Shown here: positions 42,908 through 57,153 of the stretch, piece by piece
How the letters are laid out: every line of letters starts with the position of its first letter
Numbering within the stretch: the stretch's first letter is position 1
IMG/VR virus record: IMGVR_UViG_3300036861_000610
Span: 1 to 64,000 of that record
DNA length: 64,000 nucleotides
From: a virus
Strand: one strand, 5' to 3'
Translations under genes and position numbers: made by a program
Notes under the pieces: model-generated
What the model saw: the letters and a program-made list of their open reading frames with translations, nothing else
Databases searched by the model: none
Told to the model about the DNA's origin: nothing

Positions 42908-42908
42908 G

Positions 42909-42984
42909 AGCCGCAGGGGGGAGTCGAACCCCAAGTTTTACAGGTTTTGCAGACCTGCCGCTGCGCCGGCAACGACCCCACGGC
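42909..42984 (-). tRNA. tRNA-Cys(GCA)
   Basis: Anticodon arm CAGGT-CTGCAAA-ACCTG; acceptor GCCGTGG/CTGCGGC. Confidence 0.9.
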
Positions 42985-43004
42985 CTAATCTGACCCAACT
43001 GGGT

Positions 43005-43175: not shown

Positions 43176-43228
43176 CGTCGCTGCCTTTCCTTTATTCAAT
43201 GTGTACCCATTCGCTTAATAATGGAGTG

Positions 43229-43300
43229 TACCCCTGGGGAGAATCGAACTCCCGCCCCGGCCTCCGGAGGACCATGCTCTATCCACTGAGCTACAGGGGT
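43229..43300 (-). tRNA. tRNA-Arg(CCG)
   Basis: Loop CTCCGGA, acceptor ACCCCTG/CAGGGGT. Confidence 0.92.
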
Positions 43301-43328
43301 GAACCTGCGAAGACAAGTCCCCTAGGAC

Positions 43329-43334
43329 TAAGCT
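43329..43334 (+). promoter_or_regulatory. -10 box, leaderless
   Basis: TAAGCT ending 6 nt before the ATG at 43341; a weak -35 CTGCGA lies 18 bp upstream. Confidence 0.4.
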
Positions 43335-43340
43335 CGCAGT

Positions 43341-44463: not shown

Positions 44464-44464
44464 G

Positions 44465-44537
44465 CGTCCTCGACTGGATTCGAACCAGCAACCTGCGGCT
44501 TCGGAAACCGCCACTCTCTCCGTTGAGCTACGAGGAC
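44465..44537 (-). tRNA. tRNA-Arg(CCG), second
   Basis: Stem GCGGT/GCCGC with loop TTCCGAA; acceptor GTCCTCG/CGAGGAC. Confidence 0.85.
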
Positions 44538-44541
44538 TTGG

Positions 44542-44614
44542 GGTGACTGGCCGGAGTCAAACCGGCGTATCCGGGTTCACAGCCCAGCGCTCTAATTCGT
44601 TGAGCTACAGCCAC
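44542..44614 (-). tRNA. tRNA-His(GTG)
   Basis: Loop CTGTGAA, acceptor GTGGCTG/CAGTCAC, discriminator C; position -1 is encoded as T, not G. Confidence 0.9.
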
Positions 44615-44616
44615 AG

Positions 44617-44700
44617 TGGGAGCGGAGGGACTCGAACCCCCTAAGCAATTACGCAACCGGGTTACAGCCGGCCCCACCTCACCATCGGTGGCGCGCTCCC
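44617..44700 (-). tRNA. tRNA-Tyr(GTA)
   Basis: Class II with long variable arm; loop CTGTAAC; acceptor GGGAGCG/CGCTCCC. Confidence 0.93.
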
Positions 44701-44708
44701 ATAGGCAG

Positions 44709-45209
44709 CTAATGCTGCCGCAACTCCTTGCGCCAATCAGTCTGGCGCAACACTTCCCAGCCGTCCGCATCGAGCAGAGGCTCATCCCAGCACAAGTCCA
44801 GACACTGGGTGAAGGCGCTGTCCAACTCCTCCTGCGAATCGAAGGCGCTGTCGTCCTCCTCCGAGAACTGAACTCCGAACCCGCGGCCAAGCCACAGGTT
44901 GGGCAGCTCCTCGTCCCGGGCGCCGGCCTCGTAGGCCTCGTGCCATTCGTCCATCGTGGTCCGAGGGTCGTTGGCGGGCAGCAGCTCAGCCTCAAACCAG
45001 TCCGGCCCCAACGCCACAGACGCCCAGCCGTGCCGGTAACGGAAGTAGAACACCCGGCCGTCGGTCAATACGCCCCAGTGCTGCACTGGGCACCAGCCCC
45101 CGCCGTGGGAGGTGGCTACCCGCGGGTCGTTGAGACTGTTCTCCTGGCCAGGTTCGCGGCGCAGAAGCTCCTCCCAGGTGGAGGGAAACCACTTCGGGAT
45201 CTCCGCCAT
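44709..45209 (-). CDS. Hypothetical acidic protein
   Basis: 166 aa, Trp- and acid-rich, predicted mixed fold; no recognised family. GGAGGAGGG before ATG. Confidence 0.7.
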   Translation of the reverse strand: MAEIPKWFPSTWEELLRREPGQENSLNDPRVATSHGGGWCPVQHWGVLTDGRVFYFRYRHGWASVALGPDWFEAELLPANDPRTTMDEWHEAYEAGARDEELPNLWLGRGFGVQFSEEDDSAFDSQEELDSAFTQCLDLCWDEPLLDADGWEVLRQTDWRKELRQH

Positions 45210-45232
45210 GCTGTTGCCCTCCTCCAGGAAGA

Positions 45233-45406
45233 TCAGACCGTGCCTTTACCACCACAGTTGCCGCAAGCCTTGTGGGCTCGACCACTGCCGCCACAGCCGC
45301 CGCAGGTTGTGCGACTACTTCCACTCCCAACCTGGCCCTGACCTCTGCAGGCGGGACAGGTGTCCATCTTGCCGCCAGAACCGCCGCATGCACTACACGT
45401 AGCCAT
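45233..45406 (-). CDS. DnaJ-type zinc mini-protein (copy 10)
   Basis: 57 aa. Modules CSACGGSG, CPACRGQG, CGGCGGSG, CGNCGGKG. Confidence 0.83.
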   Translation of the reverse strand: MATCSACGGSGGKMDTCPACRGQGQVGSGSSRTTCGGCGGSGRAHKACGNCGGKGTV

Positions 45407-45430
45407 GTTGGCCTTTCCTGAGGGGGAAAA

Positions 45431-45519
45431 GTTGACTGACGACAGGAATCGAACCTGCATAGATGTCATCTCGCACGAGGCATCGTTACCGGGCTCAGGG
45501 ATCCTGCGTGCGCAGTCAA
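45431..45519 (-). ncRNA. Irregular tRNA-like RNA
   Basis: T arm GCAGG TTCGATT CCTGT and outer pairing TTGACTG/CAGTCAA, but 3 extra nt between T stem and acceptor and no clear anticodon or D arm. Perhaps a decayed class II tRNA. Confidence 0.35.
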
Positions 45520-45567
45520 ACCCCTTCCTCCGGCTCCAGGCCATCTGGGACCATCAGCCAACAATCG

Positions 45568-45641
45568 GGTGACCGAGGGGCCACGATCCCCCCGCCTCCG
45601 GATCCACAGTCCGGCGCTCTACCAAGATGAGCTACGGCCAC
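45568..45641 (-). tRNA. tRNA-His(GTG), second
   Basis: Loop CTGTGGA, acceptor GTGGCCG/CGGTCAC, discriminator C. The T loop reads ATCGTGG: positions 54 and 58 are A and T instead of T and A. Confidence 0.8.
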
Positions 45642-45742
45642 CAGGACGGGAAGCGCTTCCCGTACGGCCTGTCACAGCTTCTCGTCCCCCGCCCCCGGCC
45701 GCCCGGAGAGAGGCTTACCCCGGGATTTCACCGGGAGCCGAG

Positions 45743-45815
45743 TAGGTACGGAAGGACTCGAACCTTCGGTCACCGTGGTGTGAACACGGGGCTTTTGCCG
45801 CTAAGCTACGCACCC
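45743..45815 (-). tRNA. tRNA-Val(CAC)
   Basis: Stem CCGTG/CACGG, loop TTCACAC. Confidence 0.92.
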
Positions 45816-45826
45816 ATTGAATTACG

Positions 45827-45895
45827 TACCCCATGTGGGAATCGAACCCACTCAGCCGATTTATAAGGACGGCGCCCTCAACCAAAGAATGGGGC
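45827..45895 (-). tRNA. tRNA-Ile(TAT)
   Basis: Acceptor GCCCCAT/ATGGGGT. Anticodon stem GCCG/CGGC with a wide loop centred on TAT after T33; D arm short. Confidence 0.7.
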
Positions 45896-45906
45896 ATAGG
45901 GAAAGC

Positions 45907-45977
45907 TGAGACGTCCAGATTCGAACTGGAATTTTCCGGTTAACGGCCGGATGTCGTGCCGAGTTGGACCACGCCTC
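45907..45977 (-). tRNA. tRNA-Asn(GTT)
   Basis: Stem TCCGG/CCGGA, loop CCGTTAA, so the nearly invariant T33 is a C. Acceptor GAGGCGT/ACGTCTC. Confidence 0.78.
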
Positions 45978-45997
45978 AAAGACATTGATACATGTCG

Positions 45998-46070
45998 CTC
46001 CCTGACTTGGATTCGAACCAAGGACAAGCCGATTAACAATCGGCGACTCTGCCAACTGAGCTACCAGGGA
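45998..46070 (-). tRNA. tRNA-Asn(GTT), second
   Basis: Stem GCCGA/TCGGC, loop TTGTTAA; fully canonical. Confidence 0.93.
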
Positions 46071-46075
46071 ATGAT

Positions 46076-46106
46076 GGCGGCCATTTGCGCCAAACAAATG
46101 GCCGCC
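46076..46106. repeat. 12-bp inverted repeat between tRNA genes
   Basis: GGCGGCCATTTG and exact complement with a 7-nt loop, followed on the plus strand by GTGCGTTTT. Could be a plus-strand terminator or a processing hairpin. Confidence 0.55.
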
Positions 46107-46154
46107 GTGCGTTTTCGCCTACCAGAGCGACCTTCCCGAAGGAGGGTCAACGCG

Positions 46155-46227
46155 TAGTCCCAACGGGATTCGAACCCGCGCCGCCGGCTTGAAAGGCCAG
46201 TATCCTGGACCGCTAGATGATGGGACC
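46155..46227 (-). tRNA. tRNA-Glu(TTC)
   Basis: Stem CTGGC/GCCGG, loop CTTTCAA. Confidence 0.92.
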
Positions 46228-46232
46228 TAAAG

Positions 46233-46299
46233 TGGCGCGCCTAGTCTTCGCAGAGTTGGACCCAGTGGCTCGGGCTTTACCTGTGACCCTGGCGCGCCA
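46233..46299 (-). ncRNA. Degenerate tRNA-like hairpin
   Basis: Ends TGGCGCG/CGCGCCA pair perfectly, then a GGG...CCC D-like arm with GG in the loop, but no T loop and no anticodon. Possibly a decayed tRNA. Confidence 0.3.
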
Positions 46300-46348
46300 A
46301 CGCCCCCAGACCTCAGGACTTTTCCCTATCCCCCTTTGAAGACTTGCG

Positions 46349-46423
46349 TACCCGCAGAGGGAGTTGAACCCCCGAACCTTCTCCGTGTCATAGAGATGCT
46401 CTACCAAGCTGAGCTATACGGGC
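46349..46423 (-). tRNA. tRNA-Val(GAC)
   Basis: Stem TCTCT/GGAGA, loop ATGACAC. Confidence 0.9.
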
Positions 46424-46517
46424 ATGGTGAAGTCGCAAAACCTGACCCTTTTGCGCGGTGCGCTGCCGTCCAGCAAAGGTGACAACCTTGCGGCCATCTG
46501 TGGTTGCTGGAACCCCG

Positions 46518-46593
46518 TGGCGGGAGCCGGATTTGAACCGACGATCTCAGGATTATGAGCCCTGTGGGGACGACCTAACTCCCCTACCCCGCT
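46518..46593 (-). tRNA. tRNA-Met(CAT), initiator-like
   Basis: Loop CTCATAA; position 1-72 is A-C (unpaired), as in initiators, but the stem is CAGGG/TCCTG so the third G-C pair is G-T. Confidence 0.82.
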
Positions 46594-46595
46594 AG

Positions 46596-46669
<74 letters not shown>

Positions 46670-46722
46670 TCGCGTTTGTTGCTGCTGCCACCCTACCCCG
46701 GGAGGGGGTGTGGTGGCAACCG

Positions 46723-46798
46723 TACTCCGGGAGGGATTCGAACCCCCGATTTTTGCTGATTAAAAGTCAGGCCCAATTGACCGCTCTGGCACCGGAGT
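46723..46798 (-). tRNA. tRNA-Lys(TTT)
   Basis: Stem CTGA/TCAG, loop CTTTTAA. Confidence 0.92.
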
Positions 46799-46813
46799 GT
46801 GTAGTAGGTGAAG

Positions 46814-46888
46814 TAGGTCGGGTGGGATTCGAACCCACGTAACTCTGCTTAAGAGGCAGGCCTATAACCAGGCTTTAGGTACCGACCT
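46814..46888 (-). tRNA. tRNA-Lys(CTT)
   Basis: Stem CTGC/GCAG, loop CTCTTAA. Confidence 0.88.
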
Positions 46889-46929
46889 ATATGGACCTGC
46901 GCCGTAGTGCGACCCGTCGCAAGTCCTGG

Positions 46930-47087
46930 CGCCCCACCCGGGATTCGAACCCGGAACGCCAAGCTTAGAAGGCCCGGCTGTGTATCCGACACGAGAGGCT
47001 TTAAGCCCTTCAAGAACCCCTACCCCCGGCTCTCTGCTCGGACTTTCACCGAAGAGTACATCCCCTCTGACCTTGCGGCCGTGGGAC
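46930..47087 (-). ncRNA. Expanded tRNA-Arg(TCT)-like RNA
   Basis: D-like arm GTGT CGGAT ACAC, anticodon arm CGGGC-CTTCTAA-GCTTG, T arm CCGGG/CCCGG and acceptor GTGGGGC are present. The 5' acceptor strand that fits (GTCCCAC, 7 of 7) lies 85-90 nt further upstream than normal. Confidence 0.5.
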
Positions 47088-47119
47088 TGTTCCGGGAGTG
47101 CGAGGGTCCTTGAAGGTTG

Positions 47120-47193
47120 TGCCCCGTACGGAATTCGAACCCGCGCTCACAGGGCTTTAGAGGCCCCGGCTCTGACCGCTGAGCTAACGAGAC
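47120..47193 (-). tRNA. Amber suppressor tRNA (CTA)
   Basis: Canonical cloverleaf: acceptor GTCTCGT/ACGGGGC, D arm GCTC/GAGC, anticodon stem GGGGC/GCCCT with loop CTCTAAA, so the anticodon is CTA (reads UAG). The charging amino acid is not evident. Confidence 0.85.
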
Positions 47194-47375
47194 TCACTGG
47201 GTCCATGAACGGTGATTGTAGACGAATCTCCATCTCTTTGGCTGGAGTAGGCAGTAACGGTGACCTTGGCGCTATCGGGTATACCTGCCCGCTCCGCTTG
47301 CTCAATGAGCCAACGCAGGTCCCCCAAGGCAATGGGGTTCGAGACGGTGAAGGTATTGGTTCGATTTCTGGGCAC
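47184..47375 (-). CDS. Small alpha/beta protein
   Basis: 63 aa starting GTG one C after the discriminator of tRNA-Lys. The centre (ALGDLRWLIEQAERAGIPDS) looks like a real folded helix. Its stop, TAG, lies inside the 5' end of the CTA suppressor tRNA gene. Confidence 0.68.
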   Translation of the reverse strand: MPRNRTNTFTVSNPIALGDLRWLIEQAERAGIPDSAKVTVTAYSSQRDGDSSTITVHGPSESR

Positions 47376-47376
47376 G

Positions 47377-47451
47377 TACTTCGGGTGGGATTCGAACCCA
47401 CGATTTTCCTGATTAAGAGTCAGGTCCAATTGGCCGCTCTGGCACCGAAGC
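47377..47451 (-). tRNA. tRNA-Lys(CTT), second
   Basis: Stem CTGA/TCAG, loop CTCTTAA; acceptor GCTTCGG/CCGAAGT. Confidence 0.9.
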
Positions 47452-47467
47452 ATTTCTCTCACTTGCG

Positions 47468-47556
47468 CGGAGACGGGGAGAGTCGAACTCCCACGGGATT
47501 TTCAGGCCCCACACTGTTTTCAAGACAGCTGCCGGCGCCCATCGGCTGGCGTCTCC
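47468..47556 (-). tRNA. tRNA-Ser(TGA)
   Basis: Class II; loop CTTGAAA; acceptor GGAGACG/CGTCTCC; discriminator G. Confidence 0.93.
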
Positions 47557-47687
47557 ATAGTCTTGCTGCAGCGGCAATTTTCGTCGCCGCACGGTTCCAG
47601 GTTCGCCCCGCCCCATGGATTGTCTCCCGGGTCGAGGAGGTCCTTGTCGAGTGACTCCAAAATTGCGTCCACGTCGATTGGTTTCAC
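47520..47687 (-). CDS. Small acidic Cys protein overlapping tRNA-Ser
   Basis: 55 aa starting GTG one C after the discriminator of tRNA-Ser(GGA). Contains NLEPCGDENCRC. The stop TGA coincides with the anticodon of tRNA-Ser(TGA), so the true end or the overlap is odd. Confidence 0.55.
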   Translation of the reverse strand: MKPIDVDAILESLDKDLLDPGDNPWGGANLEPCGDENCRCSKTMETPADGRRQLS

Positions 47688-47688
47688 G

Positions 47689-47775
47689 CGGAAGGCGCGA
47701 GATTCGAACTCGCGGCGGCTTTTACCCCGCACCCGCTTTCCAGACGGGCTCCCATAACCAACTGGGGCGCCTTCC
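47689..47775 (-). tRNA. tRNA-Ser(GGA)
   Basis: Class II; loop CTGGAAA; acceptor GGAAGGC/GCCTTCC. Confidence 0.93.
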
Positions 47776-47852
47776 AGGCTTGGCTTCTCATTTTTACCGA
47801 GCTGAGAAACCTCCGTGCAGCACACTCCTTTGGGGAGCCACGGGAAACCCGC

Positions 47853-48011
47853 TCATCGGAAATGCCAGCCGAACCCCTCGGGGCACTCGAACACTTCCTT
47901 GTTCTTCGGGTACTGCTTCACCTTGTCCTGCACCTGGGCGAGGATTCGGTAGCCAACCAGCCGGCAGGTGTGACACCAGTACCGGTCCCTGTCACGTTTC
48001 TGCCTGGTCAC
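47853..48011 (-). CDS. Small zinc-type protein
   Basis: 52 aa: CHTCRLVGY near the start and ECPEGFGWHF at the end, a layout I know from small actinobacteriophage proteins. GTG lies one C after the discriminator of tRNA-Ser(CGA). Confidence 0.72.
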   Translation of the reverse strand: MTRQKRDRDRYWCHTCRLVGYRILAQVQDKVKQYPKNKEVFECPEGFGWHFR

Positions 48012-48012
48012 G

Positions 48013-48098
48013 CGGAAGACCGGGGACTCGAACCCCGAACGGTTTTTAGGCCGTTACACGCTTTCGAAGCGTGCTCCTCATCCAGCCGGATGCCTTCC
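48013..48098 (-). tRNA. tRNA-Ser(CGA)
   Basis: Class II; stem CACGC/GCGTG, loop TTCGAAA. Confidence 0.93.
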
Positions 48099-48190
48099 AA
48101 CGTGGTCCCCCCGCCCCCAAAGCAGAGGGACCACCTTCCCTGGATGCCCGCTCGGACAAACGGTTCCACAGGGGGCTTGAGGGGGAGTAT

Positions 48191-48352
48191 CTACCCCGTT
48201 TTTCCTGAGCCGCGGCAGGTGCCACAAGTCTTACGACCGCCACCACCGCAGGTACCACAGCGAAGAGCATCCGTTCGGCCCGAACGGCCGGTACCACTAC
48301 AGGTGCCGCACGTAACCGTCCCAACACCGCCACAGGTGCCACAGTTTGCCAC
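48191..48352 (-). CDS. DnaJ-type zinc mini-protein (copy 11)
   Basis: 53 aa. Modules CGTCGGVG, CGTCSGTG, CGTCGGGG, CGTCRGSG. GTG with GAGGAG 8 nt upstream. Confidence 0.82.
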   Translation of the reverse strand: MANCGTCGGVGTVTCGTCSGTGRSGRTDALRCGTCGGGGRKTCGTCRGSGKTG

Positions 48353-48381
48353 TGATCATTCTCCTCTTTGAGTCCGATACG

Positions 48382-48456
48382 TCTGGGTAACAGGATTTGA
48401 ACCTGCGGGCCTCCGCGTCCCGAACGCGGCGCTCTACCAAACTGAGCTATACCCAG
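48382..48456 (-). tRNA. tRNA-Pro(CGG)
   Basis: Stem CCGCG/CGCGG, loop TTCGGGA. Confidence 0.93.
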
Positions 48457-48512
48457 AATTCCCCCGCCAGGAGGCCCCGGAAGCGGAGGATCTGCTACCA
48501 GTTGCAGCAGAG

Positions 48513-48587
48513 TCGGGATGACAGGATTTGAACCTGCGAACCTCCTGACCCCCAGTCAGGCGCGCTACCAAACTGCGCTACACCCCG
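48513..48587 (-). tRNA. tRNA-Pro(GGG)
   Basis: Stem CCTGA/TCAGG, loop CTGGGGG. Confidence 0.92.
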
Positions 48588-48594
48588 ATAAGCC

Positions 48595-48735
48595 TCAAGA
48601 ATAAGGCTCCTTGCCGCGGATCTCGTAATACAGGGCCCGGAGTACTGCCCGCACCGGATCCAGGCCGACGTGCCGGCGGTAGTGCCGGAACGAGTCCTGC
48701 AGTGCCCACCAACGGCTAACGTTACGACCCCTCAT
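48595..48735 (-). CDS. Basic helical 46-aa protein
   Basis: Helical with RVSRWW-like start and HYRRHVGLDPVRAVLRALYY core. Starts 2 nt after the stop of the upstream gene; likely coupled. Confidence 0.6.
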   Translation of the reverse strand: MRGRNVSRWWALQDSFRHYRRHVGLDPVRAVLRALYYEIRGKEPYS

Positions 48736-48737
48736 GG

Positions 48738-48974
48738 CTAGAACTCCACGTAGAAGGTATCTCCTCGTTTGACACCGTACGGCGCCCAGACTACGTCGTG
48801 GAAGTCCCGCGCCCTGACGACGTTGCCGACGAGCTTGTTGTCGAACAGGAGCAGGTTGCCGCAGATCTGACAGTCCGTGCTCGCGCCGGCCAGCTGGTCG
48901 GCGCTGTAGGTGCTGTTGTACTGGTGGCCGCAGTCGGTAACGATGACCGTGCCGCCGTTGCCGTTGACCTTCAT
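48738..48974 (-). CDS. Zinc-ribbon-like protein
   Basis: 78 aa with CGHQYNSTY and CQICGN (two Cys pairs about 20 apart). GGAGGAG before ATG, just downstream of tRNA-His(ATG). Confidence 0.68.
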   Translation of the reverse strand: MKVNGNGGTVIVTDCGHQYNSTYSADQLAGASTDCQICGNLLLFDNKLVGNVVRARDFHDVVWAPYGVKRGDTFYVEF

Positions 48975-48993
48975 CGCGCTCCTCCAGGAAACG

Positions 48994-49066
48994 ACCCTAC
49001 GACTGGATTCGAACCAGCAAACCTCTTCGTTCATAGCGAAGTGCTCTTCCGTTGAGCTACGTAGGG
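48994..49066 (-). tRNA. tRNA with anticodon ATG (His)
   Basis: Canonical arms; stem CTTCG/CGAAG with loop CTATGAA gives anticodon ATG. A34 is almost never used for His in bacteria, and -1/discriminator do not look His-like. Confidence 0.8.
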
Positions 49067-49069
49067 AAG

Positions 49070-49143
49070 CGCCCACAGAGGGATTCGAACCCCCGACCTT
49101 TGGTTCCGTAGACCAACGCTGCTATCCGCTGAGCTATGTGGGC
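49070..49143 (-). tRNA. tRNA-Arg(ACG)
   Basis: Stem TTGGT/ACCAA, loop CTACGGA. Confidence 0.92.
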
Positions 49144-49149
49144 ATATCT

Positions 49150-49179
49150 GTGAACCTGGACCCCGTGGTCCAGGTTCAC
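49150..49179. repeat. 12-bp inverted repeat between tRNA genes
   Basis: GTGAACCTGGAC and exact complement with a 6-nt loop. No T-run; may be a processing or stability hairpin. Confidence 0.55.
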
Positions 49180-49243
49180 CTTTCCGATGAGGAATTCGGT
49201 GGCAGCCGCTTTATCGATGGAGTTGGCCTCGTCGGCCTGGCGG

Positions 49244-49318
49244 TAGGAACGGGAAGAATCGAACTTCCGACCTCCGAGTTATCAGCTCGGCGCTAACTAA
49301 CCACTGAGCTACGCTCCC
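49244..49318 (-). tRNA. tRNA-Ile(GAT)
   Basis: Stem CCGAG/CTCGG, loop CTGATAA. Confidence 0.93.
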
Positions 49319-49454
49319 ATTGGTGGTGGGCGCAGAGGCGACCTACGCCGAATAGTCGCTGCAGCCCAGCCAGAATCATCTGCTCGCGCGAACTGCAGCG
49401 AGGGTCTGGCAGCCTATGACACTGCAGCTATCCCCTTTTACGCCAGGGACACCG

Positions 49455-49543
49455 CGGAAGATCAGGGATTCGAACCCTGGGGGCACCTTACGGCACCCAC
49501 CGGCTTAGCAGGCCGGCCCATTCGACCACTCTGGCAACCTTCC
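49455..49543 (-). tRNA. tRNA-Ser(GCT)
   Basis: Class II; stem CCGGC/GCCGG, loop CTGCTAA. Confidence 0.93.
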
Positions 49544-49640
49544 AGGGCTGAGGCATGAACAAGCACCTGACGCAGTCGGTACCCTCCGGAAGGTGATGAC
49601 TGTCGCTGCCTTTTATCAGAGACCTCAGCTTGTCCGGCAC
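49488..49640 (-). CDS. Possible small CxxC protein overlapping tRNA-Ser
   Basis: 50 codons from GTG 49640: SHHLPEGTDCVRCLFMPQ resembles small actinobacteriophage proteins. The end overlaps tRNA-Ser(GCT). No clear Shine-Dalgarno. Confidence 0.35.
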   Translation of the reverse strand: MPDKLRSLIKGSDSHHLPEGTDCVRCLFMPQPWKVARVVEWAGLLSRWVP

Positions 49641-49675
49641 AAGGAGGGGGCTACCTCAATGTGGGCTCCGAACCG

Positions 49676-49750
49676 CGGTCCGTACGGGATTTGAACCCGC
49701 GATCTCCGCCTTGACAGGGCGGCGCTTTGACCAGGCTAAGCTAACGGACC
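49676..49750 (-). tRNA. tRNA-Asp(GTC)
   Basis: Stem CCGCC/GGCGG, loop CTGTCAA. Confidence 0.93.
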
Positions 49751-49803
49751 AGTGTGTAGGCCTTGCACCTACTCGGAGATCATAAGGACTACCTCTACGG
49801 GCG

Positions 49804-49876
49804 CGCTAACGACGGGACTCGAACCCGCGACATCCGACCTGACAAGCCGGTGCACTAGCCGCTGTGCTACGTCAGC
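49804..49876 (-). tRNA. tRNA-Asp(GTC), second
   Basis: Stem CCGGC/GTCGG, loop TTGTCAG. Confidence 0.9.
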
Positions 49877-49933
49877 AAATGGGGGTAGCAGTAGGCGCCA
49901 TTGCCCCCGCCTTCAAGGTGGAGCGGTGAAGCG

Positions 49934-50015
49934 TGCCCAGGGTGGGGTTCGAACCCACATCCCCGAAGGGACCTTCTTTTAAGGAAGGCATGTCGACCAA
50001 TTGCATCACCTGGGC
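49934..50015 (-). tRNA. tRNA-Leu(TAA)
   Basis: Class II; stem CCTTC/GAAGG, loop CTTAAAA. Confidence 0.93.
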
Positions 50016-50407
50016 AGGCGAGTTGTTGACCAAACCCCTGCGCATGACTTGCCGCAGAACGGTCCAGCTTTACCGAGTACCCCTTGATTCCGACGAACCT
50101 CGCGCTGAGGTTTTGAAGATTTATTGCCACAAACGGGGCAGACAAAATTGAACATTGGTGCAGACGAGGTGCTTCGTTTCCTGTTCTCCTCTGGAGAGAG
50201 GACCTGAAGGTTGGAGACGTCATCATTGAGGCAATCTTTATCGATATGATCGGCCTCTTCGTCGGAGCTTAACTCGCGACCTAGGTGTTCTTCTAAAAGG
50301 TATCGAGCATATGACTGAGTGCGCCGAGTCCCATCGTCTGCGATCTTGATGACCAGACGACGAACCTGATTCCCAGTCTTGTAAAAATAGGGTCCGTAAA
50401 CTTTCAC
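50006..50407 (-). CDS. HNH endonuclease (homing type)
   Basis: 133 aa, GTG start. HNH core YARYLLEEHLGRELSSDEEA then DHIDKDCLNDDVSNLQVLSP, followed by a CPVC...C-type zinc tail. Lower GC than its surroundings. Stop lies inside tRNA-Leu(TAA). Confidence 0.82.
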   Translation of the reverse strand: MKVYGPYFYKTGNQVRRLVIKIADDGTRRTQSYARYLLEEHLGRELSSDEEADHIDKDCLNDDVSNLQVLSPEENRKRSTSSAPMFNFVCPVCGNKSSKPQREVRRNQGVLGKAGPFCGKSCAGVWSTTRLPR

Positions 50408-50436
50408 GGGTCGCAGTTTACTACAAGTGCGTTTGG

Positions 50437-50511
50437 TACCTACGGGGAGACTCGAACTCCCAACCTCCGGGACCTGAACCCGGCGCCTCTGCCAAATTGG
50501 GCTACGCAGGC
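50437..50511 (-). tRNA. tRNA with Leu anticodon CAG, class I
   Basis: Stem CCGGG/CCCGG, loop TTCAGGT, variable loop only AGGTT. Acceptor GCCTGCG/CGTAGGT; the only tRNA here followed by an encoded CCA. Confidence 0.82.
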
Positions 50512-50630
50512 AAGGCACCCCAGTTTTTTCAGTCCACGATCATTGCCTCGCGAGCCTGATCGCTTTCCTTTGCGTCAATGTCGTGCGTCCCCCTGGGGTT
50601 AGGGCTTGACGCTGTCCGTGGAACCGGGCG

Positions 50631-50822
50631 TGGACCTGGCGGGATTCGAACCCGCGACCAATGTAGGCGGTGAGGTAACGCGCTTCCCTGCCGAGGGTTG
50701 AAGTTCCTTGTCCTGTGGTCTTCTACACCACGGGCTCGGTCCCGGTGCATCCGATAAACCCTTTTCCGTCGTGACCCGGCTCCGTTTTTCCGGCGCTCTG
50801 ACCCTTCCTGAGCTACAGGCCC
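50631..50822 (-). ncRNA. Expanded tRNA-like RNA (192 nt)
   Basis: Perfect acceptor GGGCCTG/CAGGTCC, D arm GCTC/GAGC with GG in loop, T arm GCGGG TTCGAAT CCCGC. About 135 nt separate D and T arms, including a 5-bp/7-nt hairpin GTGGT-GTAGAAG-ACCAC (anticodon-like AGA) and a possible GTGTAG/CTACAT stem. Confidence 0.5.
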
Positions 50823-50835
50823 ATTGCTCCTTGCG

Positions 50836-50911
50836 TGGATCCGACGGGATTCGAACCCGTACCTCTGCAAACCGTTAGCTGCTTATGCTCTCGCCATTAA
50901 GCTACGGACCC
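50836..50911 (-). tRNA. tRNA, anticodon uncertain
   Basis: Acceptor GGGTCCG/CGGATCC, D and T arms canonical. Anticodon stem TAAGC/GTTTG with an 8-nt loop AGCTAACG; no confident anticodon. Confidence 0.65.
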
Positions 50912-50922
50912 ATTATTGACGA

Positions 50923-51087
50923 CTACCTTGAACCGCACCCACAGGAAATCTGCCCTGAGCCACCGCAGGTTCCGCAGGTTCTCTGCAGACCGCCGCTGGC
51001 GCGTATGAAGCCTTTACCATCACATGCGGCGCACTTGGTGTACCCATTGCCGCGACAGTTTGGGCACACCGGCTTCTTGTCTGCCAC
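50923..51087 (-). CDS. DnaJ-type zinc mini-protein (copy 12)
   Basis: 54 aa. Modules CPNCRGNG, CAACDGKG, CGTCGGSG and a final degenerate CGCGSR. GTG with AAGGA 8 nt upstream. Confidence 0.82.
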   Translation of the reverse strand: MADKKPVCPNCRGNGYTKCAACDGKGFIRASGGLQRTCGTCGGSGQISCGCGSR

Positions 51088-51153
51088 GTGTTGGTTCCTT
51101 CTGGTGAGTTGCTTTGACCGCGGGAAGCGTAATGCCCGGGGCCATCTTTTTGG

Positions 51154-51241
51154 GGTGCGTGGGAGGACTTGGTTGACCCCCATCTTCCGCCACATGTTCG
51201 CGACGTCGGAAATGCGGTGCTCTACCTTGAGCTACACGCAC
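51154..51241 (-). pseudogene. Decayed tRNA
   Basis: Acceptor GTGCGTG/CACGCAC perfect and D arm GCTC AAGGTA GAGC, but the T loop is lost (TCAACCA) and no anticodon arm is recognisable. Confidence 0.45.
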
Positions 51242-51243
51242 CG

Positions 51244-51316
51244 TGGAGCTTGCCGGACTCGAACCGGCCACCTCCGCCTTGCAAAAGCGGCGTTCTACCA
51301 GATGAACTAAAGCCCC
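51244..51316 (-). tRNA. tRNA-Ala(TGC)
   Basis: Stem CCGCT/GGCGG, loop TTTGCAA. Confidence 0.92.
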
Positions 51317-51487
51317 GCAGAAGCCAGAGCTGATGAGTAACCCTGGCTTCCTAGTCGTTTGCCGTTCTGCCCGCTCAACCGAACTACTAGGCACTCTCGA
51401 CGACTGGCGAGATTCTGGATCAGGGAAGCGCACCTTTAGACCAGTTCGTTCCTCGGGAGCTACCCGAGGCCGAGCTTCTCTGACACG

Positions 51488-51560
51488 AGCCAACGACGTG
51501 GATCGAACACGCTACCTCCCCCGTACGAAGGGGGCGCCCTACCTTCAGGGCCTCGCTGGC
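51488..51560 (-). tRNA. tRNA-Thr(CGT)
   Basis: Stem CCCCC/GGGGG, loop TTCGTAC. Confidence 0.93.
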
Positions 51561-51569
51561 ACTCTCTTG

Positions 51570-51854
51570 CTACCAGGACACTGAGACCGGCGCGTACCAG
51601 TCCATATCCTCACGGTCGGCGGCCTGCGTTTTGAGCAGGCCCTGGCGGACCGTCCGCCAGGCGGCACGCTCCTGGCCGCGCAGGTGCTTACGGAACAGCT
51701 GACCTACGCACAGGTTGCAGCCGCAGGTGTTGTACAACGGCCACGGCTCTAAGCCCTGGCCGCCGTGCCAGTCGGGGCGCCATAGCATCCGATGCCGGTT
51801 GTACGGGTCTGCCGTCTGCACCTGGAAGGGGCGATGAACGTCGGTTCGGGACAT
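51570..51854 (-). CDS. Hypothetical protein
   Basis: 94 aa with TCGCNLC in the middle (possible zinc site) and a helical C-terminus. No recognised family. GAAGGA before ATG, 42 nt after the short ORF at 51897-51917. Confidence 0.68.
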   Translation of the reverse strand: MSRTDVHRPFQVQTADPYNRHRMLWRPDWHGGQGLEPWPLYNTCGCNLCVGQLFRKHLRGQERAAWRTVRQGLLKTQAADREDMDWYAPVSVSW

Positions 51855-51896
51855 GTGACGACCTGTCCTTCGGCCGCCTGGAGACTTTCCCCAGGG

Positions 51897-51917
51897 CTAA
51901 CACCGGTTGACGTGCAT
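51897..51917 (-). CDS. Six-residue leader ORF (MHVNRC)
   Basis: AAAGGAG 8 nt before ATG, then five codons and TAG. The strong ribosome site makes chance less likely. May regulate the gene at 51570. Confidence 0.4.
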   Translation of the reverse strand: MHVNRC

Positions 51918-51951
51918 CGTGATCACTCCTTTTTAGGTCGATACTGAGCAC

Positions 51952-52158
51952 ATGAGCGAAACTGTCCAGATCATTTCCGCGGTGACCACCGGCGTGGTGG
52001 CCATCATCGCCGCCTACGGCGCCATCCAGGCCAAGAAGGTCCATACGATTGTGAATTCTCGAACCGACGCCATGGTGGCTCGGATCGACCAGTTGGTCAA
52101 GGAGCTGCATGTCCGGGGCGATGGCTCCGTTCCAGAAACCCCAGAGAAGAAGGATTGA
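51952..52158 (+). CDS. Small membrane protein with coiled-coil tail
   Basis: 68 aa: hydrophobic segment (about 7-24) then KKVHTIVNSRTDAMVARIDQ, a sequence type seen next to holin genes in actinobacteriophages. ATG 6 nt after a GATACT -10-like box; no Shine-Dalgarno. Confidence 0.7.
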   Translation: MSETVQIISAVTTGVVAIIAAYGAIQAKKVHTIVNSRTDAMVARIDQLVKELHVRGDGSVPETPEKKD

Positions 52159-52230
52159 GCCGGCGGTAGGGCTCGAACCCACTGCCTCGGAGGTACAAGC
52201 TCCGCGCTCTACCCGTTGAGCTACGCCGGC
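52158..52230 (-). tRNA. tRNA-Thr(TGT)
   Basis: Stem CGGAG/CTCCG, loop CTTGTAC. Confidence 0.93.
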
Positions 52231-52234
52231 ACTG

Positions 52235-52309
52235 TGCTCACCACGGGATTCGAACCCGTACTGTCGGCCCCCTCAAGACCGTGCCTCCTGCCAGTTGGGC
52301 TAGGTGAGC
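52235..52309 (-). tRNA. tRNA with Leu anticodon GAG, class I
   Basis: Stem CGGTC/GGCCG, loop TTGAGGG, 5-nt variable loop ACAGT. D arm GCCC...GGC like the CAG and CAA ones. Confidence 0.8.
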
Positions 52310-52315
52310 ATGCGT

Positions 52316-52519
52316 TTATGGTTTCTTTTCGACGAGAAGGTCGGCAACTCGCTGCACCTGTGTCGCCAGATGCAATAGTGCCCAGACCTGAGCATCCTGA
52401 ATTGCTGCCGCGACACAATTTGGATCTTCATGGTGCCAAGATCGTTTGAGTGAACGTCGTGCTTCTCTTTCGAAGTCTTGAACCGTCTCTACGCGTGCTG
52501 CTTCTTCTTTATGATTCAC
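52316..52519 (-). CDS. Helical hypothetical protein
   Basis: 67 aa, helical. GTG start one C after the discriminator of the expanded tRNA-like RNA at 52521. No Shine-Dalgarno. Confidence 0.68.
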   Translation of the reverse strand: MNHKEEAARVETVQDFEREARRSLKRSWHHEDPNCVAAAIQDAQVWALLHLATQVQRVADLLVEKKP

Positions 52520-52520
52520 G

Positions 52521-52629
52521 TGAAGCTGCCGGGATTCGAACCCGGGTCCTCGACTATTCCGCTGTACGGTTTTGCAGCCAAGTCGTACCCACCAGCCCCA
52601 TTTTGCTTGGCCTTGTCGCTCAGAGCTTC
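52521..52629 (-). ncRNA. Expanded tRNA-like RNA (109 nt)
   Basis: Acceptor GAAGCTC/CAGCTTC (6 of 7), D-like arm GCC...GGC with GG loop, 5-bp stem CGACT/AGTCG carrying a 25-nt loop in place of the anticodon loop, T arm CCGGG TTCGAAT CCCGG. Confidence 0.5.
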
Positions 52630-52708
52630 ACAGGCCCTTTGCGCCCACATCCGGCGGTGTTACTTAGTACCGCGCCCACCAGATAGCCAAGCTGGTGGGT
52701 TCCTAGCG

Positions 52709-52780
52709 CACCCGGCCAAGGATTCGAACCTCAACTAACAGAGTCAGAGTCTGTTGTCCTGCCATTTAGACCAGCCGGGT
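52709..52780 (-). tRNA. tRNA-Gln(CTG)
   Basis: Stem ACAGA/TCTGT, loop CTCTGAC. Confidence 0.92.
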
Positions 52781-52786
52781 AGGGGG

Positions 52787-52820
52787 AGGATCCGCAAATT
52801 CGCGGTCGGCGGATCCTCCC
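52787..52820 (-). terminator. 11-bp hairpin after HNH gene
   Basis: GGAGGATCCGC and its complement with a 12-nt loop, just downstream of the HNH gene. No T-run. Confidence 0.45.
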
Positions 52821-52824
52821 GGAA

Positions 52825-53274
52825 TCAGCGCTGAAGGGTGGCCCACGTGGGAGCGTAGGGCTTCACCTTCAGGGTCATACCGGCCTCGTTGGGCAGCCGG
52901 TCACCCTTGAGCTGATTGCACGGGTCGCAACACGCGACGGTGTTGACCCAGGTGTTCTTCCCGTCCCGAGAGACGGGGCGGATGTGGTCCACCGTGGTTC
53001 CCTTGGTGCTGCCGCAGTAGCCGCAGCACCGGTTGTCCCGACGGAGGACGCCAGCCCGAGACCAGGTCGGACCGGCCGTGTATCGCCACTTGGTGACGAT
53101 GAAGCGAAGCAATCTGACAGCGGTTGGCCGAGGCCATGCACCGAACTGTATGTCAGGCTCCGCTTCGTGGATCTCTGCTATACCGCGGCAGAGCATCCGG
53201 ATTGCGTGTCTGAGGCTAACCCGGTGCAGTGGACCGAGGTCAGCGTTCAGAACCATAACTGCTGCCCCTTGCAT
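52825..53274 (-). CDS. HNH endonuclease
   Basis: 149 aa. VMVLNADLGPLHRVSLRHAI opening, CCGYCG...VDHIRPVSRDGKNTWVNTVA...CCDPCNQLKG, the two Cys pairs and HNH core. AGGAGG 7 nt before the ATG at 53274. This class is often a packaging-associated HNH protein in actinobacteriophages but can be a homing enzyme. Confidence 0.85.
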   Translation of the reverse strand: MQGAAVMVLNADLGPLHRVSLRHAIRMLCRGIAEIHEAEPDIQFGAWPRPTAVRLLRFIVTKWRYTAGPTWSRAGVLRRDNRCCGYCGSTKGTTVDHIRPVSRDGKNTWVNTVACCDPCNQLKGDRLPNEAGMTLKVKPYAPTWATLQR

Positions 53275-53320
53275 CGAGTCACCTCCTTTGCGTGCAGAGG
53301 GGTTATCAATCTAGGTCACG

Positions 53321-53393
53321 AGCTGACGACGAGATTCGAACTCGCGACCCTCACCTTGGCAAGGTGATGCGCTACCAACTGCGCCACGTCAGC
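53321..53393 (-). tRNA. tRNA-Gly(GCC)
   Basis: Stem TCACC/GGTGA, loop TTGCCAA. Confidence 0.93.
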
Positions 53394-53474
53394 ATGTGGA
53401 AGGAGAGGAACCGTAAACCGGTCTTCCTGCCGGCATCCCGGCGCGGACCTTGTACCAGGTCTCCGTCTCCAACG

Positions 53475-53547
53475 AGCCTGCACCGGGATTCGAACCCGGA
53501 ACCTCCCCCTTACCATGGGGGCGCTCCACCTGGTGAGCTTTGCAGGC
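53475..53547 (-). tRNA. tRNA-Thr(GGT)
   Basis: Stem CCCCC/GGGGG, loop ATGGTAA. Confidence 0.93.
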
Positions 53548-53584
53548 GAAAACCCAGGCCACGAGGAGCTGGGTCAGTATTGCG

Positions 53585-53657
53585 TGCCCCCGCCCGGATT
53601 CGAACCGGGAACATCCGACTTTTGAGATCGGCGCCTCTGCCATTGGGCTACGGGGGC
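53585..53657 (-). tRNA. tRNA with Leu anticodon CAA, class I
   Basis: Stem CCGAT/GTCGG, loop CTCAAAA, 5-nt variable loop ATGTT. D arm GCCC...GGC. Confidence 0.82.
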
Positions 53658-53660
53658 GTG

Positions 53661-53945
53661 CTACCAGTAGGCCTTTTCGGGGTCGAAGTCCGCCCATAGG
53701 ATCTCAGTCTTGACGTGGGCGTAGTTGCGCAGCTGCACCAGCTCCTTGTGGGCGACGATGCAGTCGTCGCAGATCCAGACCACCAGATCGGGGGCACTCA
53801 TCGTCGGGTCCCAGATCCGGCTGCCGTAGTTGCCGTGGGCCGCGAAGAGCAGCCCGCGGTTGGGGGCTTTGGAGTCATCCTCGTAGTCTTCGGCGAAGTT
53901 TCCGAATGCCGACTCCAGGGTCTTGAGGCATTTGAAGCAGTTCAC
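53661..53945 (-). CDS. Zinc-type protein
   Basis: 94 aa with CFKC at the N-terminus and CDDC at about residue 60. GTG one C after the discriminator of tRNA-Gln(TTG). No known function. Confidence 0.72.
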   Translation of the reverse strand: MNCFKCLKTLESAFGNFAEDYEDDSKAPNRGLLFAAHGNYGSRIWDPTMSAPDLVVWICDDCIVAHKELVQLRNYAHVKTEILWADFDPEKAYW

Positions 53946-53946
53946 G

Positions 53947-54017
53947 CTCGGGCACCTAGGTTCGAACTAGGACTCCTGCATCCAAAGTACAGTGGGCTCC
54001 CATTACCCCATGCCCGA
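53947..54017 (-). tRNA. tRNA-Gln(TTG)
   Basis: Stem CTGTA/TGCAG, loop CTTTGGA. Confidence 0.92.
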
Positions 54018-54021
54018 AAGG

Positions 54022-54092
54022 AACCGAGTACGGGAATCGAACCCGTTCGATCAGTTTGGAAGACTGAGATGCAGCCATCACATTCACTCGGC
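54022..54092 (-). tRNA. tRNA-Gly(TCC)
   Basis: Stem TCAGT/ACTGA, loop CTTCCAA. Confidence 0.92.
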
Positions 54093-54247
54093 TTGGCCTG
54101 GGCGGCGAGGAACAAGTTCCCGACGCCTTGCATGTCCCCACCCTATGGGCGCGGCCCAGGCTACGAAACTGACGTTGGGCTCCCTAGGTCAGTCAACCAG
54201 GATGAGCAGCCTGGTCCCGGGGAAGAACCGGGGGGCGGCATTGCCCG

Positions 54248-54321
54248 TAGAGCGTACGGGGTTCGAACCCGTATTCTCCGCCGTGAGAGGGCGGCGAGAT
54301 GACCAATTACTCCAACGCTCC
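54248..54321 (-). tRNA. tRNA-Glu(CTC)
   Basis: Stem CCGCC/GGCGG, loop CTCTCAC. Confidence 0.93.
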
Positions 54322-54325
54322 ATTG

Positions 54326-54393
54326 TTGCCCCCGCCGCAGGGTTTTTGTGTCGGCCTTGAGCCTTTGATCGCGGCCGATCTCCCTGCGCGGGG
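54326..54393 (-). other. Long structured hairpin downstream of vWA gene
   Basis: GCCCCCGC(C)GCAGGG pairs with CCCTGCGCGGGGGC; inside lies CGGCC/GGCCG. Terminator-like or a small structured RNA; no T-run. Confidence 0.4.
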
Positions 54394-54465
54394 GCGTTCA
54401 CTGGTCAGGAATGTCTAGGGACGTCACTCTAGGCATTAAGGCGCCTGCCAGCTGTTCGTGAGTAC

Positions 54466-55488
54466 CTAGATCAGGTACAGGTACCGGGTGCCGGCGATCA
54501 GCTTCCGGTTGATCGACGTCGACTGGACGTAGATGTCGAAGTCGGGGTTGTGGTTCGGGCTCACCCGCACGTTCATGTCGGGCAGACCCACCATCTGACG
54601 CGCGTCCCGGCCGCTGTACACCTTGTGGTCCTTCTTGCCGACCACCATGATGTCCTTCGTCGCCTGGATTTCTTCACGCTTCATCAGCTGGTAGAACCCG
54701 CGGCCGGCCTGGTAGTTGTGGCCGCACGCCTTGGTGAACTCGTCGATGCGCGAGTCAGTTGGCACTGGCACCAGGACATAGGTGCCTTTTGCCATCGGCG
54801 TGAGGCCGGCCTGGGCGATGGTCTGGACGTTTACTGCGTCGGCGCCGGTGGAGAACAGGTTCCGGGTGGACCGGACGCCGGCTCGACGGGCCTGCATGTA
54901 GTTCTCGGTGGCGTCTCGGACGCGGTCTCCAGCTTCCCCGACGCCAGCTGCCGAGTTGGGGTTCCAGATCTCGATGTTGCCGGCGGAGAAGCCGAACTGT
55001 TTGGCCTCACGCATGCCCATGGCGTTGGGCACCAGTGCCGCAACGGTCCAATGGTCTTTGAGGCCGGCGAGACGCGCCTTGAGGGTGGCCGGTCGGTTAA
55101 CGCTGCGGTTTTCTTCGCCGTCGGTCAGGACGAAGACCAGGAACGAGTGGTCGCCGTAGCGTTCTGGGGTCTCCCCCAGGTGGTCCAGGGCCTGCAGTGT
55201 GGCGTCGATGAACGCGGTGTTGCCAAACGGTGTGTAGAAGCTGCTGATGCTCGGCAGCCGCAGCACATCCTTGTCCCAGACGACGCATTCGATGCGGTTG
55301 GGGTCGGCGAATGTCCACACCGAGATCCGGGTCTCCTGGTCCAATTCCTTGGACCGTCGGGCCAGGTGTTCAATCTGGCCGTCGGCGACTTTGATCAGGT
55401 CCTTTTTGTGCGGCGTCATCGAGGTCGATGCGTCTAGCACGAAGGCGATGTGGTTGATGATGTTGGCAATTGGTGCTGTCGCTGGCAT
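54466..55488 (-). CDS. von Willebrand A domain protein
   Basis: 340 aa. Complete MIDAS: DASTS (about residue 18), Thr near TPFGNTAF and LTDGEEN (about 118). C-terminal about 130 residues are a separate alpha/beta region with no motif. It lies in the tRNA array, 3.2 kb from the Ro60 gene, which carries another vWA domain. GGAG 6 nt before ATG. Confidence 0.83.
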   Translation of the reverse strand: MPATAPIANIINHIAFVLDASTSMTPHKKDLIKVADGQIEHLARRSKELDQETRISVWTFADPNRIECVVWDKDVLRLPSISSFYTPFGNTAFIDATLQALDHLGETPERYGDHSFLVFVLTDGEENRSVNRPATLKARLAGLKDHWTVAALVPNAMGMREAKQFGFSAGNIEIWNPNSAAGVGEAGDRVRDATENYMQARRAGVRSTRNLFSTGADAVNVQTIAQAGLTPMAKGTYVLVPVPTDSRIDEFTKACGHNYQAGRGFYQLMKREEIQATKDIMVVGKKDHKVYSGRDARQMVGLPDMNVRVSPNHNPDFDIYVQSTSINRKLIAGTRYLYLI

Positions 55489-55674
55489 CTATCACTCCAG
55501 GAGCTGTTGTGGATGTTGGTCCACATCCTGCTCTTGGGGTACGACAAGTTTTGTGCGCCGTGCGGCAAGGGAATGGCCGCAGTCCTTGTTAACCGCCAGC
55601 GTGGCTCGCCGCCTGGTCCTGCGGGACTTCGGCGCGGCTTCAATCGCGAGCTTCTGCTGCTTTACGGCACAACG

Positions 55675-55747
55675 TGTCCCCGGGCGGATTCGAACCGCCG
55701 TACTCCGACTTTTCAGGCCGGCGCTAAACCATCTCAGCTACAGGAAC
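55675..55747 (-). tRNA. tRNA-Phe(GAA)
   Basis: Stem CCGGC/GTCGG, loop CTGAAAA. Confidence 0.93.
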
Positions 55748-55787
55748 GTGTGCTGGATGGGTCTAGCCACCCAGACTTTTGAGGGAT

Positions 55788-55964
55788 TCAATTTGAAACG
55801 GTGCCTCGGCCGCCGCATCGGTTGCAAGGAACCGTTCCGGGTCCACCGCATCCTGTGCATTTGGTGATGTTGTCTTTTCCGCTTCCGGTGACGCCTCTTC
55901 CGCTACACGCAGAACATGTGATGGAGCCGGAGCCGGAACAGGTGGGACAAGACCGAGTAGGCAT
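55788..55964 (-). CDS. DnaJ-type zinc mini-protein (copy 13)
   Basis: 58 aa. Modules CPTCSGSG, CSACSGRG, CTGCGGPG, CNRCGGRG. Confidence 0.83.
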   Translation of the reverse strand: MPTRSCPTCSGSGSITCSACSGRGVTGSGKDNITKCTGCGGPGTVPCNRCGGRGTVSN

Positions 55965-55993
55965 GATCTTCTTTCGTTTCGGGGCGGTGAATA

Positions 55994-56066
55994 AGCCTCC
56001 CCGAGGAATCAAACCTCGAATCTCCAGCCATATAAAGACTGGCGCTCTGTCGATGAGCTAGGAGGC
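55994..56066 (-). tRNA. tRNA-Ile(TAT), second
   Basis: Stem CAGTC/GGCTG, loop TTTATAT; acceptor GCCTCCT/GGGAGGC; one nt short between acceptor and D stem. Confidence 0.82.
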
Positions 56067-56171
56067 ATGGGCCACAGTAGATGGGTCAGATCCAGGCCGT
56101 CGCCCGCTACTACCCGCGCAACGCTGCGGTTCCATTGCGAACCATGTACATTGGCTTTCCCTTTTGGTGCG

Positions 56172-56244
56172 TGGAGCTACGGGGATTCGAACCCCGGACC
56201 TTCCGCATGCGAAACGGATGCTCTACCAGCTGAGCTATAACCCC
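56172..56244 (-). tRNA. tRNA-Ala(CGC)
   Basis: Stem TCCGT/GCGGA, loop TTCGCAT. Confidence 0.93.
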
Positions 56245-56466
56245 ATGGAACCGGCGGGGGCAGGGTTACCCGCCCTGAGGCTTCCCCACGCCGGGCTTTT
56301 GTGATCCGTCTTTCTGGCCCCTCAGGACGGATCAACCGAGAGCATCTCCAGCCGCACGAAGGGCTGCTGCCAGTGAGGAAAGACTGTGCTGGGATCCCGG
56401 GAGACCACGGAGAGGCAACCGGATGAGCAGCCCTTTGCGGCCCAGGGAAGGACCGGGATCCCAGAG

Positions 56467-56539
56467 TGGAGATGAACGGATTCGAACCGATGACCTTCCG
56501 CCTGCCAGACGGATGCTCTACCAGCTGAGCTACATCCCC
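56467..56539 (-). tRNA. tRNA-Ala(GGC)
   Basis: Stem TCCGT/GCGGA, loop CTGGCAG. Confidence 0.93.
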
Positions 56540-56731
56540 AAAGGTGCCCGAGGTGGGGTGGGCTAATCCCGGTCCTACTCCCAGCTGCTGGACCTGACCC
56601 ATTGGGCAATGGGTCAACCTCTGCCGGACCCGTCTGTTGCTCCGGCCTTTCAGAAAGGGGCTTTCACCCTTACCGCAGGAGGCTTTTCTTGAAGCTTGCT
56701 TCGCTCGCGCTCAGCGTGCCTGCTATGCCTG

Positions 56732-56804
56732 TCGGGCACCCCGGGGTCGAACCGGGTGTCTTCAGTTCCCAAAACTGACGGGTTAACCGTCTCCCTCGTG
56801 CCCG
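56732..56804 (-). tRNA. tRNA-Pro(TGG)
   Basis: Stem TCAGT/ACTGA, loop TTTGGGA; acceptor CGGGCAC/GTGCCCG. Confidence 0.92.
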
Positions 56805-57081
56805 AGAGTTAGAGACTGCCCTGGCCGGCAACCGATGGCCCGTCGCTCCAACGACTATGCGGAGGAATTAGCGGTCCTCACCACGACGCGCGTTGGCCAC
56901 AACGGATCGACCGGCCAGGGCATGTATCTATGAATGTGCTCCTGGCCCGACGATGCCGCCGGGGGCCGTCACCCGAAGGTGCCGACATTCATTGGCCTTG
57001 CCAGGCCAGGAACATCTACACACATGCTGTCCACTGTGAAGTTCTCAAGAAACACTTCCCCGGTTTCCCGGTTATTTCGCG

Positions 57082-57153
57082 CGCCGCCGCAAGGATTCGA
57101 ACCCTGACTAACCGGGTTGGAGCCGGTTATGCTTGCCGTTACATCACAGCGAC
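57082..57153 (-). tRNA. tRNA-Trp(CCA)
   Basis: Stem ACCGG/CCGGT, loop CTCCAAC; acceptor GTCGCTG/CGGCGGC. Confidence 0.92.

Follow-up and report, generated by a model that had tools for sequence, protein, structure and literature searches.

Three leucine tRNA genes with short variable loops

The stretch of DNA analysed here (the window) covers the opening 64 kb of a 147,889 bp (~148 kb) record from an uncultured tailed phage. Within it lies a minus-strand tRNA array in which three genes with leucine anticodons have class I bodies; a class II tRNA-Leu(UAA) of the same array was used for comparison. The features as called by ARAGORN are given below, with Rfam tRNA scores where relevant (cut-off 29 bits).

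42908-57153, minus strand: tRNA array of about 49 genes, including four Leu tRNAs
49934-50015, minus strand: class II tRNA-Leu(UAA), variable arm of 12-13 nt
50437-50511, minus strand: class I tRNA-Leu(CAG), 52.8 bits, variable loop AGGTT (5 nt), A73
52235-52309, minus strand: class I tRNA-Leu(GAG), 45.9 bits, variable loop ACAGT (5 nt), A73
53585-53657, minus strand: class I tRNA-Leu(CAA), 60.8 bits, variable loop ATGTT (5 nt), A73

The three short genes are complete tRNAs by both ARAGORN and Rfam, with intact stems and a 7-bp acceptor, and an encoded CCA at 50434-50436 extends tRNA-Leu(CAG) to 50434. They have the D arm GCCC...GGC in common, and the D loop of the GAG gene is one nucleotide longer than those of the CAG and CAA genes. 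Canonical class II bacterial tRNA-Leu has a variable arm of at least 10 nt, which the 5-nt loops do not reach; loop length (4-7 nt), leucine core and Leu anticodon place the genes among short-variable-loop tRNA-Leu. The initial annotation had described three Leu-anticodon tRNAs with class I bodies, 5-nt loops and a shared D arm, together with a normal class II Leu(TAA) at 49934, and this description is borne out by the ARAGORN and Rfam results.

Other members of the array and its surroundings

ARAGORN called 51 tRNA genes in the window, one of which is an opposite-strand call overlapping tRNA-Leu(UAA); the others, with a single exception, fall inside the minus-strand array at 42.9-57.2 kb. The Ser and Tyr tRNAs of this array retain their long arms. 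More widely, tRNA-Ser genes in arrays that hold class I tRNA-Leu almost always keep long bodies, as would be expected if SerRS requires the arm and LeuRS does not.

Several other minus-strand members are unusual. The tRNA at 50835-50911 has an 8-nt anticodon loop (CTAA), of which a TCAG example occurs in a related phage array (L421), and that at 47119-47193 has the amber-reading anticodon CUA, as does a tRNA in the same slot of related phage G200 (L421). Despite this CUA-anticodon tRNA, the terminase and Ro60 genes of the phage appear to end in TAG. The gene at 42908-42984 has the Cys anticodon GCA, yet scores as tRNA-Sec (RF01852, 52 bits, cut-off 47), and the gene at 48993-49066 has an anticodon reading ATG (A34, His), besides two tRNA-His(GTG) genes. 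ARAGORN missed two tRNA-like elements, at 52518-52599 (Rfam tmRNA, 46.0 bits, cut-off 47, E 1.4e-15) and 50628-50822 (Rfam tmRNA, 22.6 bits, E 1.1e-5), which are possibly reduced tmRNA or Y RNA. On the plus strand, 53584-53657 matches the Rfam family Plastid-ycf2 (RF04354) at 43.1 bits, with a cut-off of 65.7; given that RF04354 matches the antisense strands of several array tRNAs, the family seems to be antisense tRNA. Just past the array, a Ro60/TROVE-domain protein is encoded at 58709-60316 on the minus strand (Pfam 1.9e-22), and a weak YrlA (Y RNA-like) match, well under cut-off, lies at 60935-61002.

The short genes retain leucine identity elements

The leucine determinants of E. coli tRNA-Leu are A73, the A15-U48 pair, G18G19, A20a and D/T-loop contacts, with U8:A14 a determinant in Aquifex (PMC9976931). 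The long variable arm is dispensable, since tRNA-Leu truncated to remove it can still be charged (PMC9976931). In the window, all three short genes have the A73 discriminator. We defined a leucine-type D arm by a 3-bp stem, an unpaired 13.A22 and an extra D-loop nucleotide; the CAG, CAA and class II UAA genes combine this arm with A14, A15-U48 and G18G19, and the GAG gene does likewise save for one D-loop insertion. The D-arm form and the A14, A15-U48 and A73 core of the class II gene are the same as in the short genes. The short genes keep every tested E. coli LeuRS determinant, a set that is that of E. coli and may not be that of the host. The leucine D-arm form, A15-U48 and A73 occur together in only 5 of 790 non-Leu tRNAs.

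The short form is widespread in phages and actinobacteria

We searched viral contigs by the D arm alone (AGCCCAA-N1-5-GGCAGAGGC), a pattern blind to the anticodon, and called tRNAs with ARAGORN afterwards. Among the matches listed, 99 of 100 motif tRNAs carried a Leu anticodon (UAA 54, UAG 22, CAA 18, CAG 2, GAG 2, AAG 1), and all were of class I length. Bacteria and archaea were searched with the D-arm pattern plus a T-loop anchor in one genome per species (84,980 species); here all 122 motif tRNAs among the matches listed were class I with Leu anticodons. Pooling the matches listed in both searches gives 222 tRNAs, all class I, 221 of them with Leu anticodons. The pattern itself fixes A14, A15 and G18G19, so that independent evidence comes from A73, U48, the anticodon and tRNAs lacking the motif. 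In the last group, A73 and A15-U48 were found in 48 of 50 class I Leu tRNAs; of class I tRNAs for other amino acids, 99 of 607 had both.

Most of the species-genome matches listed are solitary genes on large chromosomal contigs of Actinobacteria, including Mycobacterium, Nocardia, Gordonia, Corynebacterium, Microbacterium, Nocardioides and other genera. A minority of those listed sit in tRNA arrays (Cylindrospermum, Moorena, Chloroflexaceae, Elusimicrobia and others). Six bacterial contigs, from Chloroflexaceae, Actinomycetes, Cylindrospermum, Microcoleus, Moorena and Acidobacteria, pack 12-34 tRNA genes into at most 8 kb, class I tRNA-Leu among them. When Actinomycetota were sampled evenly, the strict pattern was present in 37 of 198 genomes, every match having a Leu anticodon; a reversed-pattern control gave 0 matches in the same 198 genomes.

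Mycobacterium sp. SM1 provides a natural test of function. Its tRNA inventory comprises 45 distinct tRNAs at 46 places. UUA and UUG are read solely by class I tRNA-Leu(UAA) and tRNA-Leu(CAA), the CAG, GAG and UAG tRNAs being class II, and the core leucine D-arm form is present in 5 of 5 Leu tRNAs and 0 of 35 others. Given this sole-reader role, a free-living bacterium uses the armless form as its normal leucine tRNA at two codons. In agreement with the SM1 picture, the long variable loop in M. tuberculosis belongs to tRNA-Leu-2, 3 and 5 (PMC11541572); the short-loop tRNA-Leu(TAG) described from a mycobacterial tRNA cluster (PMC6582537) fits it as well.

These data qualify two statements of the initial annotation. 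Its premise that bacterial tRNA-Leu is class II does not hold in general, since many Actinobacteria have class I tRNA-Leu as a normal chromosomal gene. Its suggestion of a phage-specific Leu tRNA type stands as regards a distinct type and falls as regards phage specificity: the form is the ordinary UUA/UUG reader in Mycobacterium sp. SM1 and is also present in many other actinobacteria and in tRNA arrays of bacteria.

Leu genes hold their slots in related phages

Relatives whose terminase is 61-79% identical have tRNA arrays with a gene order largely like that of the window. Their Leu genes occupy matching slots, for example Asp(GTC)/Ala(TGC), Thr(TGT)/Gln(CTG) and Thr(GGT)/Gln(TTG), and all of these slot-matched genes are class I, UAA included; UAA is class II in the window only. 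That the UAA slot is class II here and class I in arrays L421, L422 and L423 suggests that one form replaced the other. At one slot the anticodon switches between CAG and UAG among relatives, always within Leu. Some relatives' Leu bodies have drifted far from the common core, so that charging could differ between family members in these few cases.

A near-identity search for the array in annotated phages returned nothing useful. Terminase and primase matches are mostly phages of actinobacteria, with Microcystis and Brevundimonas phages among the top terminase matches. Beyond the window, one open reading frame of 6,683 codons spans plus-strand record positions 67831-87882, among the structural genes, and a portal-like protein is encoded in two overlapping plus-strand frames at record positions 65360-66553 and 66508-67821. 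The two parts match phrog_859 positions 383-547 and then 536-775, which may reflect a frameshift, an assembly error or a true split.

Codons read by the short tRNAs align with conserved leucine

Among 989 Leu codons in 13 phage genes, CTG accounts for 48.6%, CTC for 19.1% and TTG for 13.8%, together 81%. To evaluate their meaning we aligned homologs of terminase, portal and Ro60 and scored columns conserved at 80% or more; these three proteins were used because primase had no viral-contig relatives by pattern. Conserved columns were Leu at 34 of 38 CTG, 9 of 10 CTC and 11 of 13 TTG codons (54 of 61 overall), and the non-Leu columns among the 61 were spread among W, I, T, V, F and M. Since close relatives might have a changed code in common, we turned to terminase homologs below 50% identity. 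In these, the positions of CTG 231 and CTG 414 are Leu in 62 of 62 homologs, via all six Leu codons, and those of CTC 265 and TTG 183 are Leu in 59 and 58 of 62, respectively. Judged by these alignments, CTG, CTC and TTG mean leucine in the phage. A search for the tRNA-synt_1 family (Leu/Ile/Val/Met synthetases, including LeuRS) found no match in the phage record and was positive in 14 of 14 control genomes.

Probable arm loss with leucine identity kept

Together these data make it very probable that the three genes are tRNA-Leu that have lost the arm and kept the leucine core, that they are charged by the host LeuRS, and that they help to decode the Leu codons used most by the phage. A 5-nt loop would have replaced the long variable arm, and the core that is kept comprises A73, U8/A14, the A15-U48 Levitt pair, G18G19, the 3-bp D stem, the unpaired 13.22 and the extra D-loop nucleotide. 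Since what bacterial LeuRS recognises is A73 and the D/T-loop core, and not the variable arm, we infer that the host enzyme charges the short tRNAs with leucine through these elements. They belong to a tRNA set that is nearly complete and would then add decoding capacity for CTG, CTC and TTG; low-level mischarging may also occur. The tolerance of LeuRS is by itself enough to explain that the arm can be lost.

The short arm might also have been selected, if it lets phage Leu tRNAs, still carrying leucine, evade toxins or defences of the host for which the arm is the mark of a class II tRNA. We count MenT3 on the side of this reading, together with the view that phage tRNAs counter tRNA-degrading defences (PMC10865867), and it is possibly a further reason for arm loss, compatible with the explanation above. 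We nonetheless regard it as unlikely. The short form is already a normal chromosomal tRNA in actinobacteria, so that no phage-specific pressure is needed, and the Ser and Tyr tRNAs of the same array retain their arms. A broader version, similarly doubtful, would make armless tRNA-Leu a mobile isotype that swaps anticodons across all Leu codons and is favoured by phages as a LeuRS substrate escaping arm-recognising host enzymes.

Decay of the genes into non-functional copies, the arm having been lost by drift, is less likely still. Of the three, the GAG gene does score lowest in Rfam and has one D-loop nucleotide more, and odd members occur in the array, among them the tRNA at 50835 with its 8-nt anticodon loop; all three genes, however, score well over the tRNA cut-off and retain A73, the Levitt pair and paired stems, Leu genes hold the same slots in related arrays despite strong divergence, and in SM1 UUA and UUG are read by this tRNA type alone. 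Charging by another synthetase with reassignment of CUG, CUC and UUG in phage proteins, as the initial annotation proposed, has in its favour class I bodies unlike those of textbook bacterial tRNA-Leu, but is unsupported and extremely improbable, given that these codons make up most of the phage's Leu codons and align with conserved leucine, that the tRNA core is leucine-specific and carries the LeuRS determinants, that the record has no Leu/Ile/Val/Met-type synthetase, and that class II tRNA-Leu of the host would be a competitor for these codons.

We therefore return to arm loss with leucine identity kept. Because many actinobacteria and phages have the same short type as a standard tRNA, and leucine remains the meaning of the codons, the genes represent an ordinary, little-noticed tRNA type with no change of code. 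This corrects the assumption that bacterial tRNA-Leu is class II, which can mislead phage tRNA annotation and trigger false alarms of codon reassignment. It also provides a natural, multi-lineage test set for the parts of tRNA-Leu that LeuRS needs, in which the arm can be lost from tRNA-Leu and is nearly always retained in tRNA-Ser of the same arrays.

Comparison with known systems

Short-variable-loop tRNA-Leu is widespread in actinobacteria and phages and is neither phage-specific nor new. One report mentions in passing that a mycobacterial tRNA cluster gained by horizontal transfer includes a short-variable-loop tRNA-Leu(TAG) (PMC6582537). As described there, it resembles the phage genes in its short loop, its place in a mobile tRNA cluster and the normal chromosomal isoacceptor alongside, and differs in having an anticodon other than the phage's three (PMC6582537). 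Our literature searches of open-licence papers found none on the charging of armless phage tRNA-Leu.

Among phages, cyanophage P-RSM6, Mycobacterium phage Kykar and the T5-like AKFV33 have class I tRNA-Leu(UAA) with A73 and A15-U48, as here; they differ in that all three carry the UAA anticodon, and AKFV33 also in its D-stem sequence. Two candidates for comparison were set aside as class II: the tRNA-Leu(CAA) of mycobacteriophage Gaia, which replaces an essential host gene on integration and had been considered as in vivo proof, and the T5 tRNA-Leu(UAG).

Animal mitochondrial tRNA-Leu likewise lacks a long variable arm and is charged by LeuRS via A73 and A14 (PMC9976931); it is organellar, has its own LeuRS, and is likened to the phage genes by features rather than by descent. 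Unlike the reassigning yeast mitochondrial tRNA-Thr and Candida tRNA-Ser, the phage tRNAs read Leu codons that align with leucine. The allo-tRNAs are tRNA-Ser-like 8/4 or 9/3 forms with an extended acceptor, a long arm and a non-cognate anticodon, whereas the phage genes have a 7-bp acceptor and a short loop.

Closest in kind is actinobacterial tRNA-Leu of the SM1 type, with the same class I body, the D arm TAGCCCAA..GGCAGAGGC or its T10-A25 variant, A15-U48, A73 and Leu anticodons. The two divide the codons differently: in SM1 the short form reads UUA and UUG and class II reads CUN, whereas the phage has the short form for CUG, CUC and UUG and class II for UUA.
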